NCBI RefSeq assembly: GCF_003052165.1
Contig: NZ_CP024869.1
Span: 2,948,001 to 3,012,000 of the forward strand
Direction: 5' to 3'
Length of the DNA stretch: 64,000 nucleotides
DNA from: Dietzia sp. JS16-p6b
GTDB taxonomy: Bacteria; Actinomycetota; Actinomycetes; Mycobacteriales; Mycobacteriaceae
Of the stretch, positions 23,296 to 33,292 are shown in pieces. Below the pieces are notes generated by a model. The model was not told where the DNA came from, made no database searches, and was given only the letters and a program-made list of their open reading frames with translations. Both the position numbers and the translations under genes were made by a program. Every line of letters starts with the position of its first letter. Positions within the stretch are counted from its first letter, which is position 1.

Positions 23296-24624
23296 CTAGT
23301 ACCCCTCACTCGCGACTCGCAACACATCCTTCGCGGACTCGAGCCACCGAAACGGTTCGATCTCCACCGCCACCGGATCCCCTGACCACAGCGAGGCGGG
23401 TTCCCAGTACCAAGCCGCAACGTTCCCCTCGACGAACGCAAACTGCTCCCCAGCTCGGTCGAGATCACCCAGAACAATATGCGCCGACGCCAAGTTGACT
23501 GGCCTGCTGATATTCCCGATGTCGTCCGATACCGCACTCAGCAATCGTATGGCTAACTCCGGATCGTCGGGGATTGAGCAGAAGGCCAGAGCGTTGCTCC
23601 ACACAGCGTTCTGCGGGTCGTTCAGCCAAGCTTTACGTGCCCGGTGCACCGCAGCAAACCTGTCCCCCGCTTGGATCGCCAGAACAATGTCCTCCAATAC
23701 CTGGTCCACGTCGGTCGATTCCGAATCGCCGTTTCGGAGTTCGCTCATCGCCGACTGGCCGAGCGCTTTCCACAGCACGGACACGGGAAACTGTCTTTCG
23801 ATCAAAACCTCAGATTTCACCCCCGAAAGAGCCGACATTTCTTGCGAATCGTTGACCCAGGCAATCTCGAGCTCGATCGATCGTGTGCACCACTCCCGAG
23901 GTGAGGTTCTGGTGAACCGCTCGTAAACCCACCTGGACACGGACTGCCCTCCGCGCAAGACCCTGTGGTCAAGCGCGGCCTCCGTCCGTTCGTACCCCTC
24001 CAGTTTCCATGCGATCAGGTGGGCTGCTGCCGCGTCTTCTACCCACCGATCAATGAGATTGCGCCCCGCGCCTTTCCGGGTCTCGTGCATGAGGTGATCG
24101 AGAGTGATCTCGCCCTCAGCAGCGCGGCAGACCGTGAGGCAATTCTCAACGTATCGGAGCCACGGCTGCATCGTCGGAGCGGAGGGGAGAGGTTCCCCGG
24201 ACCCGGACTCCCTGGCCCAGATAGCCAAGCTGAGGTCGTAGAGGAGTTGCCTCTCGACCGCTGGCGCCAGAAAACTTCTGAGGACCATGTCCGGACTTAT
24301 CCCCCGCTCCCCCAATAACCCGAGCGCCGAGGTCACGTAAACTGCCCTCCTCAGCGGGTCCCGCCACGGCGGGGTGAGAACCTTGTCGCGCACGAAGCGA
24401 AGAAGAGTGGCCGTCGGCCACGTTGCGTCTGGAGGGACGCCCACCCTCTGCAGGACGTCCTTACCCAGATCGACGTTGCCCCATTCCCATTCGAGCCGTC
24501 GACGCTCGACAGCGATGCTGCGGATCGACTCACAAGCCCCGTCACCACCGCAAAGTGCATGACCGCTCGACGAACACTCGTTAGCAAAATAGTCGAGTGC
24601 AGCAACGTGAAGCTCGGAATACAT
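23296..24624 (-). CDS. Unknown 442-residue protein in the toxin-antitoxin islet
   Basis: I do not recognise the family. The N-terminus has a possible metal site with C17, H22, C25 and C31 (EC-SSSGHALC-GGDGAC). The middle is alpha-helical and rich in Trp, Arg and Glu (VERRRLEWEWG; MQPWLRYVENCL). The last 130 residues look like short TPR-type helical hairpins (AIQAGDRFAAVHRARKAWLN; LASAHIVLGDLDRAGEQF). No transmembrane segment or signal. TACGAT (24632-24637) ends 7 nt before ATG 24624, so it may be leaderless. The gene shares the lower GC of the toxin-antitoxin genes and has no counterpart in the mycobacterial interval. A defence or phage-sensing role is conceivable but unproven. Confidence 0.75.
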   Translation of the reverse strand: MYSELHVAALDYFANECSSSGHALCGGDGACESIRSIAVERRRLEWEWGNVDLGKDVLQRVGVPPDATWPTATLLRFVRDKVLTPPWRDPLRRAVYVTSALGLLGERGISPDMVLRSFLAPAVERQLLYDLSLAIWARESGSGEPLPSAPTMQPWLRYVENCLTVCRAAEGEITLDHLMHETRKGAGRNLIDRWVEDAAAAHLIAWKLEGYERTEAALDHRVLRGGQSVSRWVYERFTRTSPREWCTRSIELEIAWVNDSQEMSALSGVKSEVLIERQFPVSVLWKALGQSAMSELRNGDSESTDVDQVLEDIVLAIQAGDRFAAVHRARKAWLNDPQNAVWSNALAFCSIPDDPELAIRLLSAVSDDIGNISRPVNLASAHIVLGDLDRAGEQFAFVEGNVAAWYWEPASLWSGDPVAVEIEPFRWLESAKDVLRVASEGY

Positions 24625-27896: not shown

Positions 27897-28346
27897 ATGG
27901 CTACCACCACCACCAAGCTCGACTCCGACGTCGTGGTCCGCACCTTCTTCGACGCCCTCGTCTCGGGCGACGTCACCACCGCCTCCGAGCTGCTCGCCGA
28001 GGACGTGTGGTGGGCCAACATCGGGCTCCCCACCATCCGGGGCAAGCGCGATGTGGTCAAGGCGCTGTCGGCCCTGGGCGGCAGCGTGGACTTCGACGCG
28101 GAGATCCACCACCTCGCCGTGGGCGCCCCCGCCGACCCCACCACCCCCGGCTCCCCGACGATCGTGCTCACCGAACGCACCGACTACCTGGGGGTCGGGC
28201 GATTCCGCTGCGGGTTCTGGGTGTGCGGGCGACTCGAGGTCCGCGACGGCCTCGTGTGCGGCTGGCAGGACTACTTCTCCAAGTCCGACATGGCCCTCGG
28301 CGCGGTGCGCGGACTCGTCGGAATGGTCACCGGCCGGGGCCGCTGA
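27897..28346 (+). CDS. Limonene-1,2-epoxide hydrolase / SnoaL-like protein
   Basis: A 149-residue cone-shaped alpha+beta barrel protein. The segments TFFDALVSGDVTTASELLAEDVWWANIG, ERTDYLGVGRFRCGFWVCGRLEVRDGLVCGWQDYF match the LEH family (compare mycobacterial Rv2740), whose members hydrolyse epoxides of lipids or terpenes. The catalytic Asp-Arg-Asp set can be placed at ERTDY, GRLEV and GWQDYF, though Glu replaces one Asp, so activity is uncertain. Its 3' end overlaps the convergent kinase gene by 20 bp. Confidence 0.8.
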   Translation: MATTTTKLDSDVVVRTFFDALVSGDVTTASELLAEDVWWANIGLPTIRGKRDVVKALSALGGSVDFDAEIHHLAVGAPADPTTPGSPTIVLTERTDYLGVGRFRCGFWVCGRLEVRDGLVCGWQDYFSKSDMALGAVRGLVGMVTGRGR

Positions 28347-28785
28347 CCTCGTCGTCGTCCTCCGACTGCCCCGCCTCCCGCTCGCGGTGACAGGCCAGCC
28401 GCCAGACGTTCTCTCCCCCGCGCCGGCGGTACTCGAGTTCATCGAGCGCCTCCACCGCGATCGCCAGCCCCCGGCCCCGGGCGGCGAAGACGTCCGGCAT
28501 CTGCACGGCACGCAGGTCCACCCGGGCGGGGCTGCCGTCGTCGGTGAAGCGCGCCTCGAGGCGGTCCGGCGTCACCTCCAGTACGAGGTCGAGGTGCACC
28601 GGGCCGCCGTCGGCCGCGTGCTCGATGATGTTCGCCCCGATCTCCGCCACGGAGATCTCGAACCGCAACCGCACCTCCTCCTCGACCTCACCGGCCGAGA
28701 GCGTCTCCCCGATCAGATCGAGGATCCTGTCGAGCGTGCCCTCACCCGTGGTGAGGGTCAGCTCCCGACGCTGGTCAGCCGCCAT
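28327..28785 (-). CDS. RsbW-like HATPase serine kinase (partner-switching)
   Basis: A 152-residue single-domain ATPase of the HATPase_c_2 (SpoIIAB/RsbW) type: the N box SVAEIGANIIEHAADGG with E48 and N52, a DDGSP G1 box, and the ATP-lid segment FAARGRGLAIAVEALDE. Such proteins phosphorylate a STAS partner and bind a target when the STAS protein is phosphorylated. It is the last gene of the five-gene operon and overlaps the STAS gene by 11 nt. No sigma factor gene is adjacent, so the target may be the glycosyltransferase or an unlinked sigma factor. Confidence 0.88.
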   Translation of the reverse strand: MAADQRRELTLTTGEGTLDRILDLIGETLSAGEVEEEVRLRFEISVAEIGANIIEHAADGGPVHLDLVLEVTPDRLEARFTDDGSPARVDLRAVQMPDVFAARGRGLAIAVEALDELEYRRRGGENVWRLACHREREAGQSEDDDEVSGPGR

Positions 28786-29110
28786 CGAAGGCGGAGTCCG
28801 CCGACTCGTGCGCGGTCAGAACCCGGTCGAGCCGGGTGAGCTTCAACACGCTCGTGACCTGTGCGTTCGGGGCCGCGATACGAAGGTCGCCCCCGGCTTG
28901 CCTGGCGGCTTTGAGTCCGGATATCAACGCCCCGAGTCCCGAGGAGTCGATGAACTCGGTGGCGCTGAGGTCCACCACCACCCGGCGCGACCCGCCGTCG
29001 ACCAGCTCACGGAGCTGGTCGCGGAGGCCGGGGGCGGCCACCATGTTCAGTCGACCGGTCGGCTGAACCACCACTGCGGTGCCGGCCTCCCGGATGTCGT
29101 AGGCGGTCAT
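28775..29110 (-). CDS. STAS-domain anti-sigma-factor antagonist
   Basis: A 111-residue SpoIIAA/RsbV-like protein: VVVQPTGRLNMVAAPGLRDQL, VVVDLSATEFIDSSGLGALI with S56/S57 at the phosphorylation site, and a C-terminal helix LDRVLTAHES. The ATG at 29110 overlaps the glycosyltransferase stop (ATGA) and has AAGGAG 4 nt upstream. It should be phosphorylated by the downstream HATPase and dephosphorylated by the upstream PP2C phosphatase, completing a partner switch within the operon. Confidence 0.92.
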   Translation of the reverse strand: MTAYDIREAGTAVVVQPTGRLNMVAAPGLRDQLRELVDGGSRRVVVDLSATEFIDSSGLGALISGLKAARQAGGDLRIAAPNAQVTSVLKLTRLDRVLTAHESADSAFDGG

Positions 29111-31077
29111 GTCGCTCCTTCTCTGTCGGGTCCACGGTAGCGAGCGGCCCGGAAGACCACCGAGAGAATCAACAGGTCGAACACCACCCAGACGAGGTTC
29201 GCCGTGACGCCGAGGACGGAGATCGCCCCCAGGTACAGCCGCACCACCCCGATGACGGCCGCCACCACCAGGAACGCCATGACGATGAGTTGCGGCCGGA
29301 AGAGGTACCACGGCGTCGCGTCCTCCCCCTGGCGGGTCTTGGGGGTGACCGCGAAGTCGAGGGGTTTACCGAAGTAGACGTTGCGCGCGGCGGTCCAACA
29401 GGCCGCGATCCACACGGGGAAGAGGGCGAGGCTGTACTGCTGTCCCCGCCAGGTCGGGGTGCCCCGGCCGGCGATGAAGAACAGCAGCTGGCTCAGAACG
29501 AGGAACGGGATGAGTCGCGCGAAGAAGTCCACGCTCCACGCCTGGACGGGCAGCACGCCGAAGGTCAGGTAGATGACCGGGGCGGCGAAGTATGCCAGTG
29601 CCGCGAAGCCCGAGAGGTAGCTCCACATCGTGGACCAGTACATCAACCGCTGGGCCAGCGTCAGACCCCGCTGCACCAGGGGGTTCTCGCGCAGCATCAC
29701 CTGGATCGTGCCCTGTGCCCACCGCAGTCGCTGGGTGAGCATCGTCTTGGGGTCCTCGGGCGCCAGACCATAGGCCAGCACCTCGTGGTGGTAGGCGGTC
29801 CGCCATCCCGCAGCGTGCAGACGCATCGCGGTGGCCATGTCCTCGGTGACCGAGATGGTCGCCAGCGCCTGGGTGGGTTCCGCCTCGTCGGCCCGGTCGA
29901 TGTCCACGGCGCGGATCAGCGCGCGGACCGACTCGACCGCTCCCAGCGGCGACCACTCGCGGTCGGCGAGCTGGTCGAGCACCAGGTCGTCGAGCACTAT
30001 CGCGTCCGCCCCGTGCTCGTCCAGCGCGGCGATCGCCTCGAGGTCCGACCGGATCGCGCCCATGTCGGCGTCCACCACGGTGCGCGCGGCCGCGTCCACC
30101 GTCTGCTGGAACCCGTAGGTGATCTCCGCGAGAGACCCACCCGCCCTGAGTTCGGCGCGGGCGGTGCGCACGGCCCGCCGGACGGTTCCGAGCGCCTCCC
30201 CCACCTCGGGCTGGTCCGCCGGGACCGTGCGCTGTGCCCGCCTGATCACCCTGCCGGCCGTCCGCAGGGCGCGATCCACCCCGTCCTCCACGGCCTTGAC
30301 GTACCCCGTGATGCCGAGCTGCATCAGCGCCTCGCGACGGAGCACGGCGTTCGACCCGCAGAAGAACGCCGCGTTCCACCCGTCCTTGCCCTGCTGGATG
30401 GGCCCGTAGAACAGGGGTGCCTGGCTGCCCAGCGGGTCGGACTCGGGGACGTTGGTGAAGTACTGCGGGGTCTGGACCAGCGCCATACCTTCGTCAGTGA
30501 AGTACCCGAGGGTCCGGTCGAGGATCTCCGGCTCGGGGACCTGGTCCGCGTCCAGGATCAGCAGGAACTCGCCGTCCGTGTGCAGCAGTGCGTTGATGAG
30601 GTTTCCCGCCTTGGCGTGGCGTGGCTTGTCGGTCCAACTGGCCGACCGGGTGAGGTAGTCGACCCCCAGCTCCGCGGCGGCGGCCTGGAGTTCCGGACGG
30701 GCGCCGTCGTCCAGGATCCACGTGCGGTGCGGGTAGCGGATGCGCTTGGCGGCCGCCGCCGTGTCGAGCACCAGGTCGAGCGGCTCGTTGTAGGTGGTGA
30801 TGAATACGTCGACGCTCAGCCCCTCCGGCGCCGGGGGCGGCTCGGGGCGACGACGCAACCGCCACATGGTCACGGCGAAGAGGATCGAGTCGATCAGGCT
30901 GTAGGTCTCGGCCAGGACCAGCGGGACGGCGATCCACCAGGCGTCCCAGTTGACCGAGAACAACCACCGCCACACGATGTAGTTCAACCCGACGATCACG
31001 GTCACCACGATGAGCAGCCGCAGGTAGGGCGAGGGGTACTCGCTGCGCGGCACCGGCGGGGCCGGGACCGTGCTCAC
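29107..31077 (-). CDS. Cellulose-synthase-like GT2 membrane glycosyltransferase with a 145-residue insertion
   Basis: Processive beta-glycan synthase, 656 residues. Two N-terminal TM helices (about 20-38, 47-70), a GT2 core with DVFITTYNEP (90-99), LDADQ (D176, D178), catalytic TED (411-413) and QRLRW (449-453), then about six C-terminal TM helices (478-640). Between AVLRREAL and SVTEDMAT, where BcsA-type enzymes have about 15 residues, there is a helical Ala/Arg/Asp-rich insert (about 260-405). No PilZ domain follows, so c-di-GMP control as in BcsA is unlikely. The GTG at 31077 overlaps the phosphatase stop (GTGA). It probably exports a polysaccharide, possibly a beta-mannan or glucan; the product is not certain. 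Confidence 0.9.
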   Translation of the reverse strand: MSTVPAPPVPRSEYPSPYLRLLIVVTVIVGLNYIVWRWLFSVNWDAWWIAVPLVLAETYSLIDSILFAVTMWRLRRRPEPPPAPEGLSVDVFITTYNEPLDLVLDTAAAAKRIRYPHRTWILDDGARPELQAAAAELGVDYLTRSASWTDKPRHAKAGNLINALLHTDGEFLLILDADQVPEPEILDRTLGYFTDEGMALVQTPQYFTNVPESDPLGSQAPLFYGPIQQGKDGWNAAFFCGSNAVLRREALMQLGITGYVKAVEDGVDRALRTAGRVIRRAQRTVPADQPEVGEALGTVRRAVRTARAELRAGGSLAEITYGFQQTVDAAARTVVDADMGAIRSDLEAIAALDEHGADAIVLDDLVLDQLADREWSPLGAVESVRALIRAVDIDRADEAEPTQALATISVTEDMATAMRLHAAGWRTAYHHEVLAYGLAPEDPKTMLTQRLRWAQGTIQVMLRENPLVQRGLTLAQRLMYWSTMWSYLSGFAALAYFAAPVIYLTFGVLPVQAWSVDFFARLIPFLVLSQLLFFIAGRGTPTWRGQQYSLALFPVWIAACWTAARNVYFGKPLDFAVTPKTRQGEDATPWYLFRPQLIVMAFLVVAAVIGVVRLYLGAISVLGVTANLVWVVFDLLILSVVFRAARYRGPDREGAT

Positions 31078-32306
31078 GCCGCCTCTCTCCGGACGGCCAC
31101 CACGGTCACGTCGTCCAGCGGGGGCCGGCCCGCCACCAGGTCGCGGGTCGCAGCCGTGAGCTCGTCGGGAAGGGCGAAGGGTTGCACGAACTGCCACACC
31201 GCGGCGGGGTCGCTGTCCTCGTCCAACAGATCGAGCAGACCATCCGAGCAGATCACCAACACGTCGCCCGGCTCTAGCTGTGCCTCATCAGAGGCCCAGG
31301 TGGTCCCGGGGAGGATCCCGATGGGGGGCCCGCCCTCCTCCAGGGGCTCGATCCGCCCGTCGGAGCGCCGCACCAGCGCAAGGCCGTGGCCCGCATCGGT
31401 GTAGCGGATCGTCCCGCTGGGCAAGTCTATAGCGGCGAGGAGCGCCGTGACGAAGGTCGAGGTGAGCTCGCAGTCCTCGGCGAGGTGCTCGGCCGCGAGC
31501 GTGGTGACTGCCCCCGTGTCCTGCGCGCCGTCGGCGGGGCCGAACCGGTCGAGCACCCGGGAGGCCCCCCGGACCGAGGCGCGAACCGAGGAGGACAGGA
31601 TCGCGGCCCCGAGCCCCTTGCCCATCACGTCGGCGACGGTGAGCATCAGGGTGTCTCCACGACTGTAGTGGTCGAAGAAGTCTCCGCCGACGGTGAACGC
31701 CGGGAGGCAGACGGCGGCGATCCGGTAGCCCTCGAGTCCGGTGAGGGGGCGCGGGAGCAGCTGGGTCTGTATCTCCGCGGCCCGGTCCAGCTCCGCGGAC
31801 CGCTCGAGTTCCCGTTGCGCCCACTCGGCGAGCTCGGTGAACGCCTCGATCTGCTGCGGGTCGAGGTTCCGGGGCTCGAAGTCATAGACGCAGAAGGTGC
31901 CCACCGGATGACCTGTGGGGCCGTAGAGCGGATAGCCGGCGTAGAACCGGACCCCGTCCGGGCCACCGATACCGGGGATCTCGGCGAACTCCGGGTCGGC
32001 GGTGGCGTCCGGGATCACCAGCGCAGGGTCGTCAGGGCGGCGGTACGCCCGCGCGATGGTGGTCCGGCAGACCGTCTTGTCCCGGGGCACCTCCTCCACC
32101 TCGAGCCCGTGGATCGACTTCATCCACAACCGGTCGTCGTCCATCAGGGACAGGGATGCCGCGGGGACGCCGAGGACCCGGCGCGCCATGTTCGTGACCT
32201 GGTCGAACCGGCCCTCGGGCGGGGTCCCCAACAACCCCAGCCGCTCCACGTCGCGCACCCGCTCGGCCTCCACTGGTGCGGGGATGCTCCACGGCGGCGG
32301 GGTCAT
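31074..32306 (-). CDS. GAF-domain PP2C (SpoIIE/RsbU-type) serine phosphatase
   Basis: A 410-residue soluble sensor-phosphatase. GAF domain about residues 20-165 (SLSLMDDDRLWMKSIHG, FYAGYPLYGPTGHPVGTFCVYD), a coiled linker, then a SpoIIE domain (about 190-410) with metal-binding VGGDFFDHY (D209), VADVMGKG (D226), CSDGLLD and DDVTVVAV. It should dephosphorylate the STAS protein in response to a small-molecule or redox signal read by the GAF domain. ATG 32306 overlaps the GH26 stop by 4 nt (ATGA). Longer upstream starts lie inside the GH26 gene. Confidence 0.92.
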   Translation of the reverse strand: MTPPPWSIPAPVEAERVRDVERLGLLGTPPEGRFDQVTNMARRVLGVPAASLSLMDDDRLWMKSIHGLEVEEVPRDKTVCRTTIARAYRRPDDPALVIPDATADPEFAEIPGIGGPDGVRFYAGYPLYGPTGHPVGTFCVYDFEPRNLDPQQIEAFTELAEWAQRELERSAELDRAAEIQTQLLPRPLTGLEGYRIAAVCLPAFTVGGDFFDHYSRGDTLMLTVADVMGKGLGAAILSSSVRASVRGASRVLDRFGPADGAQDTGAVTTLAAEHLAEDCELTSTFVTALLAAIDLPSGTIRYTDAGHGLALVRRSDGRIEPLEEGGPPIGILPGTTWASDEAQLEPGDVLVICSDGLLDLLDEDSDPAAVWQFVQPFALPDELTAATRDLVAGRPPLDDVTVVAVRREAA

Positions 32307-33292
32307 CTCGTACGGCTCCCTCTGGTCAGGGCGTCCGCCATGGCGGCGGCGGACTCCGGGCTGCTGGCCAGGCGCCAATCGGTCTCCTTGTGGTGGTCGA
32401 ACCACACGAACGCCGTCAACTCTTCTCTCGAATCAAGGTACCCGACGAGGTCCCTGGCCCACTCGGACTTGGGCCCACCCGCCTCCGCGCTGGCCACCTC
32501 GGTGACCATCACGGGCACTCCCGGTGCGATCGTGGCCACCTCGTCCAGGGTGGGGCCGAGGATCTCGTCCGGTTCCTGCCAGGAACTCCACGCCTGGGTG
32601 GTACCCCAGTTGTAGCCGTCGACGCCCACCACGTCCACGTACTCCTCGCCCGGGAAGAGCGGGGCCACCGGGCTGCTCCCGGGGTGCGGGACGTTGACGG
32701 TCCAGACCCACCGAACGTTGTGCACCGCTTCGGCGGCGAAGAGGTCGTGCACATGCCGCCACGCTTCCACATAGGTCTGCGAAGGGGTACCGCCCCGCGG
32801 GCTCCACGGGTACCAGTCGCCGTTGGCCTCGTGGGCGAATCGCAGGTACACCGTGTCACCCCAGGCGGCCAGTTCGTCGGCCCAGCGATAGAGGTGGTCG
32901 TCGTGGACCCCCGCGGCGATCTCCTCCATCGGGAACGCCCCGCGGTCGTACACCCCGTCCGCGATCCACCGCCACGGCTCCCACGTGATGATCGGGTCCG
33001 CACCCCATTCCCGGACGGCGTCCAACTCGGCGATCGGGGGCGGGGAGGAGAAGTCGACGAACCACATCACCACACTCGGCCGGGCACCCACGGTGTCGGC
33101 GACCGCACGGAGCTCCTCCGGGGCGGCAGGTCCGCCGGGAGTGCTCACCCCGAAGCGCGGACACGCCTGCCCGGGCGCGTCGAGTGGCGCCAGAAGGGGG
33201 TCGGCGGCGACGTCGCACTGCCGCGAGGATCCACACGCCACACACATCACCGCCACCACCACCGAGACCAGGGCCATCCGCACCGCACGCAT
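32303..33292 (-). CDS. Secreted GH26 beta-mannanase-like glycoside hydrolase
   Basis: A 329-residue exported protein. The N-terminus ALVSVVVAVMCVACGSS is a signal peptide with a poor lipobox (CVAC), so a lipoprotein is possible. The catalytic acid/base sits in YLRFAHEANGDWYPW and the nucleophile Glu in VMVTEVASAEAG; VDVVGVDGYNWG also matches GH26. This family cleaves beta-mannans and mixed beta-glucans. It is the first gene of the operon with the GT2 synthase, as hydrolases often accompany exopolysaccharide synthases. It diverges from the SDR gene across 55 bp. Confidence 0.87.
   Translation of the reverse strand: MRAVRMALVSVVVAVMCVACGSSRQCDVAADPLLAPLDAPGQACPRFGVSTPGGPAAPEELRAVADTVGARPSVVMWFVDFSSPPPIAELDAVREWGADPIITWEPWRWIADGVYDRGAFPMEEIAAGVHDDHLYRWADELAAWGDTVYLRFAHEANGDWYPWSPRGGTPSQTYVEAWRHVHDLFAAEAVHNVRWVWTVNVPHPGSSPVAPLFPGEEYVDVVGVDGYNWGTTQAWSSWQEPDEILGPTLDEVATIAPGVPVMVTEVASAEAGGPKSEWARDLVGYLDSREELTAFVWFDHHKETDWRLASSPESAAAMADALTRGSRTR

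Follow-up and report, generated by a model that had tools for sequence, protein, structure and literature searches.

Synthases of the BcsA family are the closest described relatives of the enzyme considered here. The PilZ domain of these enzymes reads c-di-GMP, and an F-x-V-T-x-K motif acts in the gating loop. The gating loop of BcsA is described in PMC10374906. In S. meliloti, a partner switch for the mixed-linkage glucan synthase is reported to act via a diguanylate cyclase (Baena 2019, as cited in an excerpt of PMC11619594), and c-di-GMP activates the synthase, BgsA, by binding at the C-terminus (excerpt of PMC9495663). A STAS protein also regulates polysaccharide in Vibrio fischeri (SypA/SypE) and Nostoc (HmpUVW), and the excerpts of PMC8256260 and PMC10120452 report the targets of SypA and HmpV as unknown. 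Here we report a five-gene operon of Dietzia sp. JS16-p6b, located in a window of 64,000 nt (the whole stretch of DNA that was analysed), which suggests that a BcsA-like synthase is switched on and off by a protein trio that normally controls gene-reading factors. The gene set was not described in any paper found in the open-access PMC literature, among the matches listed.

The five genes are minus-strand open reading frames joined by successive overlaps of 4, 4, 4 and 11 nt (Table 1). The overlapping starts were adopted, and the longer mechanical starts of the phosphatase (443 aa), the synthase (696 aa) and the STAS protein (178 aa) were set aside. All five products matched Pfam families above cut-off: Glyco_hydro_26 (45.8 bits) in the GH26 protein, SpoIIE (117.3 bits) and GAF (47.9 bits) in the phosphatase, Glyco_trans_2_3 (66.8 bits) and Cellulose_synt (63.2 bits) in the synthase, STAS (65.6 bits) in the STAS protein and HATPase_c_2 (51.9 bits) in the kinase. 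The initial annotation had described this layout, a synthase without PilZ but with a helical insert, and an operon without a sigma factor; the reading frames and overlaps were all found again, no Pfam PilZ match (PF07238) was obtained in the synthase, the AlphaFold model shows helices for the insert, which separates the GSNAV region from TED, and none of the five genes encodes a sigma factor. No BcsB-like partner genes were found among the neighbours scanned with Pfam. Taken jointly with the explanation developed below, the operon probably serves to make and regulate a secreted beta-glucan.

Table 1. Features of the operon, with positions in the window.
Feature	Position	Strand	Details
GH26 hydrolase, probable lipoprotein	32303..33292	-	ATG, 329 aa; N-terminus judged by eye; PF02156
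GAF + SpoIIE-type PP2C phosphatase	31074..32306	-	ATG, 410 aa; Pfam
PilZ-less BcsA-like GT2 synthase	29107..31077	-	GTG, 656 aa; DDG, DAD, TED, QRLRW motifs
GT2 slice with helical insert, residues 247-400 (helices 248-391)	29878..30339	-	AlphaFold model, BcsA comparison, alignments
GT2 gating-loop motif FAVTPK (F-x-V-T-x-K)	29338..29355	-	BcsA-type; retained without PilZ
Stand-alone STAS protein, SpoIIAA/RsbV type	28775..29110	-	ATG, 111 aa; Pfam, TIGR00377 above cut-off
STAS DSSG motif, residues 55-58, presumed phospho-acceptor serine	28937..28948	-	Homology to SpoIIAA/RsbV
SpoIIAB/RsbW-type serine kinase	28327..28785	-	ATG, 152 aa; Pfam; E48/N52/H56, DDGSP, GRGL

The synthase combines the catalytic motifs and the gating-loop motif of BcsA-type enzymes in a BcsA fold. 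The C-terminal PilZ domain is absent, and PF07238 was detected neither in the synthase nor in the genome; the same search detected it in five control synthases. The AlphaFold model has a mean pLDDT of 75.8, with values below 50 at residues 221-241, 353-362 and 395-412. Residues S376, P377, L378 and A380 of the insert are invariant in alignments of GT2 homologs, and we tentatively regard the insert as a candidate docking platform for a switch protein. Searched against solved chains, the insert sequence gave a best match of E 0.012 in a list containing fusion, de novo and helical chains. A search with the whole synthase model, a query not informative on the insert alone, returned no sigma match, and the insert as a sigma mimic is an idea only. 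Judged by eye, the insertions of proteobacterial and Nostoc homologs are shorter or placed differently.

All parts of a partner switch are present, namely a SpoIIE-type phosphatase, a STAS protein with a DSSG motif and a HATPase_c_2 kinase. The phosphatase is presumed to be the input arm; SpoIIE matches no other protein of the window's complete genome, and the Asp/Gly motifs of the phosphatase domain are invariant in 20 aligned sequences. The STAS protein is the sole stand-alone PF01740 match in the genome; DSS is invariant and the next Gly nearly invariant in 23 aligned sequences, and the DSSG serine is presumably the phospho-acceptor, by homology to SpoIIAA/RsbV. Among seven genome matches to HATPase_c_2, the operon kinase is the only stand-alone protein, the rest being histidine kinases (by eye). 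Searches for SpoIIE, stand-alone PF01740 and stand-alone HATPase_c_2 proteins found no second partner switch in the complete genome. A kinase tail that had seemed a near-invariant motif (DDDEVSGPGR) proved to be an artefact of the few rows aligning there, and a loose form occurs in two open reading frames only.

Genes for STAS and kinase accompany the synthase at 101 of 108 loci (97 of 104 distinct loci), the window included. Among the seven loci where they do not adjoin it, four belong to Arthrobacter genomes in which a separate contig carries the PP2C-STAS-kinase trio, another has STAS and kinase beside a second GT2 gene, one lies at a contig end and one holds a GT2 fragment. In these four Arthrobacter genomes the unlinked trio may have another role. 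In a sample of 394 genomes of the class, the synthase occurred in 23 and the operon-type STAS, defined by a profile built from GT2-adjoining STAS proteins with a line at 1e-30, in 21, all of them within the 23. Further STAS proteins above this line were seen in two GT2 genomes (G450, G453). Within the genus (23 genomes), the SpoIIE phosphatase was restricted to the three genomes with a full-length synthase; of the 20 negatives, 12 are at least 90% complete. A survey of 396 genomes of the phylum at E <= 1e-70 yielded two synthase matches, both already among the known ones. Recurrence of the gene set across many genera of actinobacteria makes it more than a chance association. The check proposed by the initial annotation, conserved co-occurrence of the five genes, did not refute its reading: co-occurrence is strong for synthase, STAS, kinase and phosphatase, the last three being companions of the first, whereas GH26, with a strong upstream match at 38 of 108 loci, stands outside the universal core.

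Outside Actinomycetota, 18 plasmid-borne relatives were examined, of which ten are PilZ-less and linked to the trio and eight lack the trio; the ten came from the best-ranked 18 of 472 records and the controls were mostly lower-ranked, so that the sample is non-random. PilZ is present in five of the eight controls (L165, L166, L170, L171, L174) and absent from three (L172, L173, L175). No STAS or kinase gene was found within 6-8 kb of any control (8 kb for L172, L173 and L175), and L171 and L172 gave a match to the GAF part only of the PP2C profile. The three PilZ-less controls rule out the rule that every PilZ-less synthase has the trio, and a missing PilZ domain therefore does not imply a linked switch.

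The explanation that we favour as probable is that a partner switch working without c-di-GMP controls a beta-glucan synthase post-translationally, with STAS as the likelier protein to dock on the insert. The GAF-PP2C phosphatase would sense a signal and dephosphorylate STAS at the DSSG serine, and the kinase would put the phosphate back. STAS, or less likely the kinase, would then license or block synthesis by docking on the catalytic domain at its helical insert, the switch standing in for the missing PilZ in setting synthase activity, and the GH26 protein would trim or free the polymer. We infer the direct contact of STAS or kinase with the synthase, docking at the insert, the sign of the regulation and the identity of the polymer. 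A broader reading, to which we give somewhat less than even odds, is that a PilZ-less class of the BcsA family, spread over three phyla or more (Actinomycetota, Pseudomonadota, Cyanobacteriota), has had its PilZ/c-di-GMP sensor replaced by a partner switch. This switch would dock on a catalytic-domain insertion and control the gating loop via phosphorylation of the STAS serine, so that its direct output would be a glycosyltransferase instead of a sigma factor.

The product may be a mixed-linkage (1,3;1,4)-beta-glucan, to judge by the sequence of the hydrolase. In the PDB, the GH26 protein is closest to chains of Endoglucanase H (2v3g, E 2.8e-50; best mannanase 1.8e-8), and its candidate catalytic glutamates, E155 (HEANGDW) and E265 (TEVAS), lie in motifs that both align with Endoglucanase H, so that the catalytic pair is kept. 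We take the Endoglucanase H structures to be the C. thermocellum lichenase Lic26A, and this nearest relative is therefore a hint of mixed-linkage beta-glucan. The chances are nearly even that the polymer is instead cellulose or another beta-glucan without mixed linkage: the synthase model is nearest to bacterial cellulose synthase, and most plant CesA chains outscore CslF6 (two comparisons). Against this reading stand the operon hydrolase with its Endoglucanase H affinity and GH16 genes in two proteobacterial versions of the locus, neither of which fixes the substrate.

Which switch protein would touch the synthase was approached by covariation. Insert columns covary with STAS and with the kinase above entropy-matched core columns in a phylogeny-laden set of 74 sequences (Neff 35), and the two values (0.0053 for STAS, 0.0050 for the kinase; threshold chosen by the analyst) are not separated. 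STAS and the phosphatase domain gave no signal (0.0006), though this pair should interact, which makes the test a weak one and leaves docking at the insert at somewhat less than even odds; some PP2C picks in the set may be paralogs (L064, L068). It is conceivable, if rather unlikely, that the kinase is the effector, a free kinase inhibiting the synthase by gripping the insert in the way it would grip a sigma factor, until unphosphorylated STAS removes it. SpoIIAB/RsbW offer an analogy, the covariation of the insert with the kinase is about that with STAS, and the strongest covarying pair of the synthase joins its residue 277 to kinase residue 43. Among the four core proteins, however, conservation is lowest for the kinase (mean identity 0.41, against 0.46 for PP2C and 0.63 for STAS), and the Asp of its D-x-G box is lost in 7 of 26 aligned members. 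STAS is weakly preferred as the docking partner because it evolves more slowly.

The initial annotation had allowed for a switch acting on the synthase or on a sigma factor elsewhere; conserved co-occurrence makes the synthase the best-supported target, and the sigma route has been weakened. We consider it improbable that the kinase works as anti-sigma factor on SigA, SigB or some ECF factor encoded elsewhere, with the operon or a wider regulon as output. All three switch parts are homologous to Rsb/Spo switches, and in Chlamydia control of the primary sigma factor by the Rsb network has been reported (a reference title in an excerpt of PMC11619594). Yet phmmer searches with the genome's SigA and SigB, which could miss ECF factors, found no such factor, and thus no nearby cognate sigma factor of the Rsb/Spo type, at any of the 108 loci; the complete genome contains just two region-3 sigma factors, the SigA and SigB look-alikes; the 20 genus genomes without a full-length synthase also lack the SpoIIE phosphatase; and the link to the synthase outlasts unlinking in the four Arthrobacter genomes. 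Action of STAS or an equivalent through a diguanylate cyclase, with c-di-GMP activating the synthase, has precedents in the S. meliloti switch (excerpt of PMC11619594) and the P. aeruginosa Sia system (excerpt of PMC8457831) and finds GGDEF proteins in 16 of 26 GT2 genomes tested, but is very improbable here, as GGDEF gave no match in the window's complete genome, is absent from nine other GT2 genomes (10 of 26 in total), and PilZ was found in none of the 13 GT2 genomes tested, the window's included.

Compared with the BcsA cellulose synthase, the enzyme lacks PilZ, carries ahead of TED a helical insert some 140 residues long and has STAS, kinase and PP2C as operon partners; it scores 353.1 bits against TIGR03030, the NCBI CelA equivalog, whose cut-off is 699.1. 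The GH26 protein shares the glutamate motifs of Endoglucanase H (Lic26A); it sits in a synthase operon, and its specificity is predicted. The trio resembles the Rsb/SpoIIA switch in its SpoIIE phosphatase, STAS with DSSG and HATPase kinase, but is linked to a glycan synthase in place of a SigA/SigB-like sigma factor. The initial annotation had named Vibrio Syp as the closest parallel; the S. meliloti mixed-linkage glucan synthase with its switch is nearer in parts. As in the case of BgsA, a BcsA-like synthase without PilZ would be under a partner switch, possibly with a mixed-linkage product; unlike BgsA, it is hosted by a genome without detected GGDEF. L172 and L173, two synthases from rhizobia that have a partner of the HlyD family and that we take to be BgsA, have no STAS or kinase gene within 8 kb. 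SypE unites kinase and phosphatase in one protein, according to the excerpted source, whereas here they are encoded by separate genes, which share their operon with just one BcsA-like synthase. For SypA and HmpV the targets are the missing piece in those excerpts, and here the likely target is encoded in the same operon; if the favoured reading is true, the locus represents a c-di-GMP-independent route to gate a processive beta-glucan synthase and could point to actinobacteria that make mixed-linkage glucan.

When the open reading frames of the minus-strand operon were re-read, the five genes, their order and their overlaps of 4, 4, 4 and 11 nt were as described in the initial annotation, whose domain assignments also agree with Pfam and NCBIfam matches. 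Sequence motifs are intact in the cellulose-synthase-like glycosyltransferase (GT2; DDG, DAD, TED, QRLRW, FAVTPK), the STAS protein (DSSG), the kinase (E48-x3-N52, GRGL) and the GH26 hydrolase (HEANGDW, TEVAS), as are the Asp/Gly motifs of the PP2C phosphatase in alignment. Two neighboring features are listed with the operon below.

Positions of the operon and nearby features in the window
Feature	Position	Strand	Remark
Five-gene operon	28327-33292	-	
Limonene-epoxide-hydrolase-like gene	27897-28346	+	tail-to-tail 20 nt overlap with kinase 3' end
442-aa ORF	23299-24624	-	no Pfam/NCBIfam match at E <= 0.001; in lowest-GC block region
Region of lowest-GC 2-kb block	22-24 kb		62.5% GC

A scan of genome contigs confirmed 513 relatives, the best 80 of which were combined with 28 from genome searches (the window's own included) into a set of 108 loci, 104 of them distinct; L003, from genome G007 of the window's genus, is the same DNA as L022. 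The co-occurrence of all five genes, proposed as a check in the initial annotation, was borne out for STAS and kinase, which both accompany GT2 in 101 of the 108 loci (97 of the 104 distinct ones) in profile searches, but not for the hydrolase, with a strong upstream GH26 match in only 38. GH26-like matches that are weaker or otherwise placed lie downstream in 29 further loci. Phosphatase, STAS and kinase (the trio) are all present in 97 loci; the phosphatase was not found in six, some of which are short, and in L005, L064 and L068 the gene order is changed with the genes still near. Among the seven loci missing STAS and kinase, four (L061, L071, L084, L093) come from Arthrobacter genomes that carry the trio on a separate contig, with no GT2 found in the surrounding 12 kb; in the genome of L082, STAS and kinase accompany a second GT2, L113 is cut off by the end of its contig, and the GT2 of L122 is a fragment. 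The genes almost certainly constitute one functional module. A whole GH26-type operon, with a GT2 71% identical to that of the window, is also present in a record labelled Kitasatospora arboriphila (L034), reflecting either transfer or a mislabelled assembly.

Among 394 genomes sampled evenly across the class, 23 contain GT2 (E <= 1e-60); operon-type STAS (E <= 1e-30) occurs in 21, each of them one of the 23 (Fisher p = 7e-33, although the genomes are related, with GT2 in 9 of 138 genera). Both counts apparently refer to the same 394 genomes, as the handles agree among those listed, which leave out most of the negatives. The two GT2 genomes without STAS over the line are G167, an 80% complete genome whose GT2 lies on a 3.3-kb contig and whose best STAS match is at 3.3e-24, and G397 (GT2 only a fragment, no STAS at 1e-10). 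The STAS profile came from operon members, and two GT2 genomes (G450, G453) hold further STAS proteins over the line. Of 23 genomes from the window's genus, three encode a full-length GT2, and these alone also have a SpoIIE phosphatase; 12 of the 20 GT2-negative genomes are at least 90% complete.

The complete genome containing the window (one contig, 3.72 Mb) gave no GGDEF and no PilZ match in a whole-genome domain search. GGDEF is absent from 10 and present in 16 of the 26 GT2 genomes tested (G167 and G397 lie outside the 26), and none of the 13 tested for PilZ, the ten without GGDEF among them, has a match. The window's genome encodes one SpoIIE match, three PF01740 STAS domains (the two besides the window STAS lie in proteins resembling a glutaminase and a SulP transporter) and seven HATPase_c_2 matches, of which the window kinase alone is stand-alone and the rest read as histidine kinases. 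Region 3 is found in two of its sigma factors, which look like SigA and SigB. Neither had a phmmer match in any of the 108 loci, where the flanks covered reached 9 kb at most in the set of 80 and were 1.5 kb in most of the rest; ECF factors could escape this search.

In the mechanism that seems most likely, the phosphatase arm would act as input, STAS as a switch reset by the kinase, and the synthase as output. The phosphatase carries a GAF domain in the window and, judged by eye, begins with a response-regulator-like segment in Arthrobacter-type loci. Mean identity across 73 loci and the window is 0.63 for STAS, 0.46 for the phosphatase domain and 0.41 for the kinase; such slower evolution would be expected if STAS had an extra fixed partner. 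Columns of the insert, a helical segment within the GT2 catalytic domain, covary strongly with STAS in 0.0053 and with the kinase in 0.0050 of pairs (STAS with kinase, 0.0054), compared with 0.0020 and 0.0024 for entropy-matched core columns, where 0 and 1 of 2000 resamples reach the insert value. This covariation among 74 related sequences is only suggestive. On balance, the switch probably acts on the synthase after translation; the insert is a tentative candidate for the docking site, a reading slightly weakened by the lack of a comparable signal between STAS and the phosphatase domain (0.0006). The Asp of the D-x-G box is lost in 7 of 26 aligned kinases (L057, L059, L064, L068, L073, L097, L100; Micrococcaceae-type, N-box and GRGL kept); ATP binding may be altered or lost in these proteins. 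SpoIIAA and RsbV carry Asp in G-x-L-D, whereas the operon STAS has Asn at this position (G-R-L-N-M, in at least 90% of 23 aligned rows).

A tblastn search against plasmids returned 472 records, and 18 matches were opened. In ten of these, a synthase measuring about 600-670 aa has the trio within about 8 kb and lacks a PilZ match; the sources are Sphingobium, Pseudooceanicola, Paracoccus (two), Rhodobacteraceae, Salmonella, Vibrio, Pantoea, Nostoc and Chimaeribacter. By eye, the trio-linked synthases have extra catalytic-domain segments, in Proteobacteria at the place of the window's insert and in Nostoc elsewhere. For the other eight, neither STAS nor kinase was found in the 6-8 kb covered. 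PilZ is present in five of these (L165, L166, L170, L171, L174), two of which adjoin diguanylate cyclase genes, and absent from three: the rhizobial L172 and L173, which have an HlyD-family partner, and L175 from Agrobacterium. The linked switch is therefore characteristic of one lineage of PilZ-less synthases rather than of all. The Salmonella, Pantoea and Chimaeribacter plasmid loci (L163, L164, L167) carry OpgC, a globin and three DUF3131 genes in addition to synthase and trio; no paper combining DUF3131 and glycosyltransferase was found in a literature search.

In a search of solved structures, the GH26 hydrolase matched Endoglucanase H (2.8e-50), which we take to be the C. thermocellum lichenase, far better than the best mannanase (1.8e-8), and both catalytic Glu motifs line up with it. 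Excerpts of one study report that lichenase specifically cleaves the mixed-linkage glucan of S. meliloti (PMC9495663). The GH26 likeness is an indirect hint at mixed-linkage glucan; the GT2 product is very probably a beta-glucan, with about an even chance that it is mixed-linkage glucan. In four loci (L055 and L088, Nocardioides and Clavibacter; L091 and L071, Nocardioides and Arthrobacter), OpgC_C follows a GH26-profile-matching region in the downstream gene, with Pfam's own GH26 reached in L071 only. This is reminiscent of the proteobacterial loci, in which OpgC is a gene of its own; an OpgC or acyltransferase annotation is present in seven of nine of them (the Vibrio locus is without annotation). 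A gene of the Nostoc locus matches the GH26 profile at 2.2e-35 (Pfam score 19.2, just below the cut-off of 20.2), and GH16 occurs in the Sphingobium and one Paracoccus locus.

Partner switches controlling polysaccharide are already known. According to the excerpted sources, a phosphorylated STAS protein of S. meliloti works via a diguanylate cyclase (PMC11619594), the targets of SypA (Vibrio fischeri) and HmpV (Nostoc) are unknown (PMC8256260, PMC10120452), and an Anabaena glycosyltransferase has an N-terminal STAS domain (PMC8256260). No description of the present gene set was found among the papers listed in literature searches. It consists of known parts with a probably new output.
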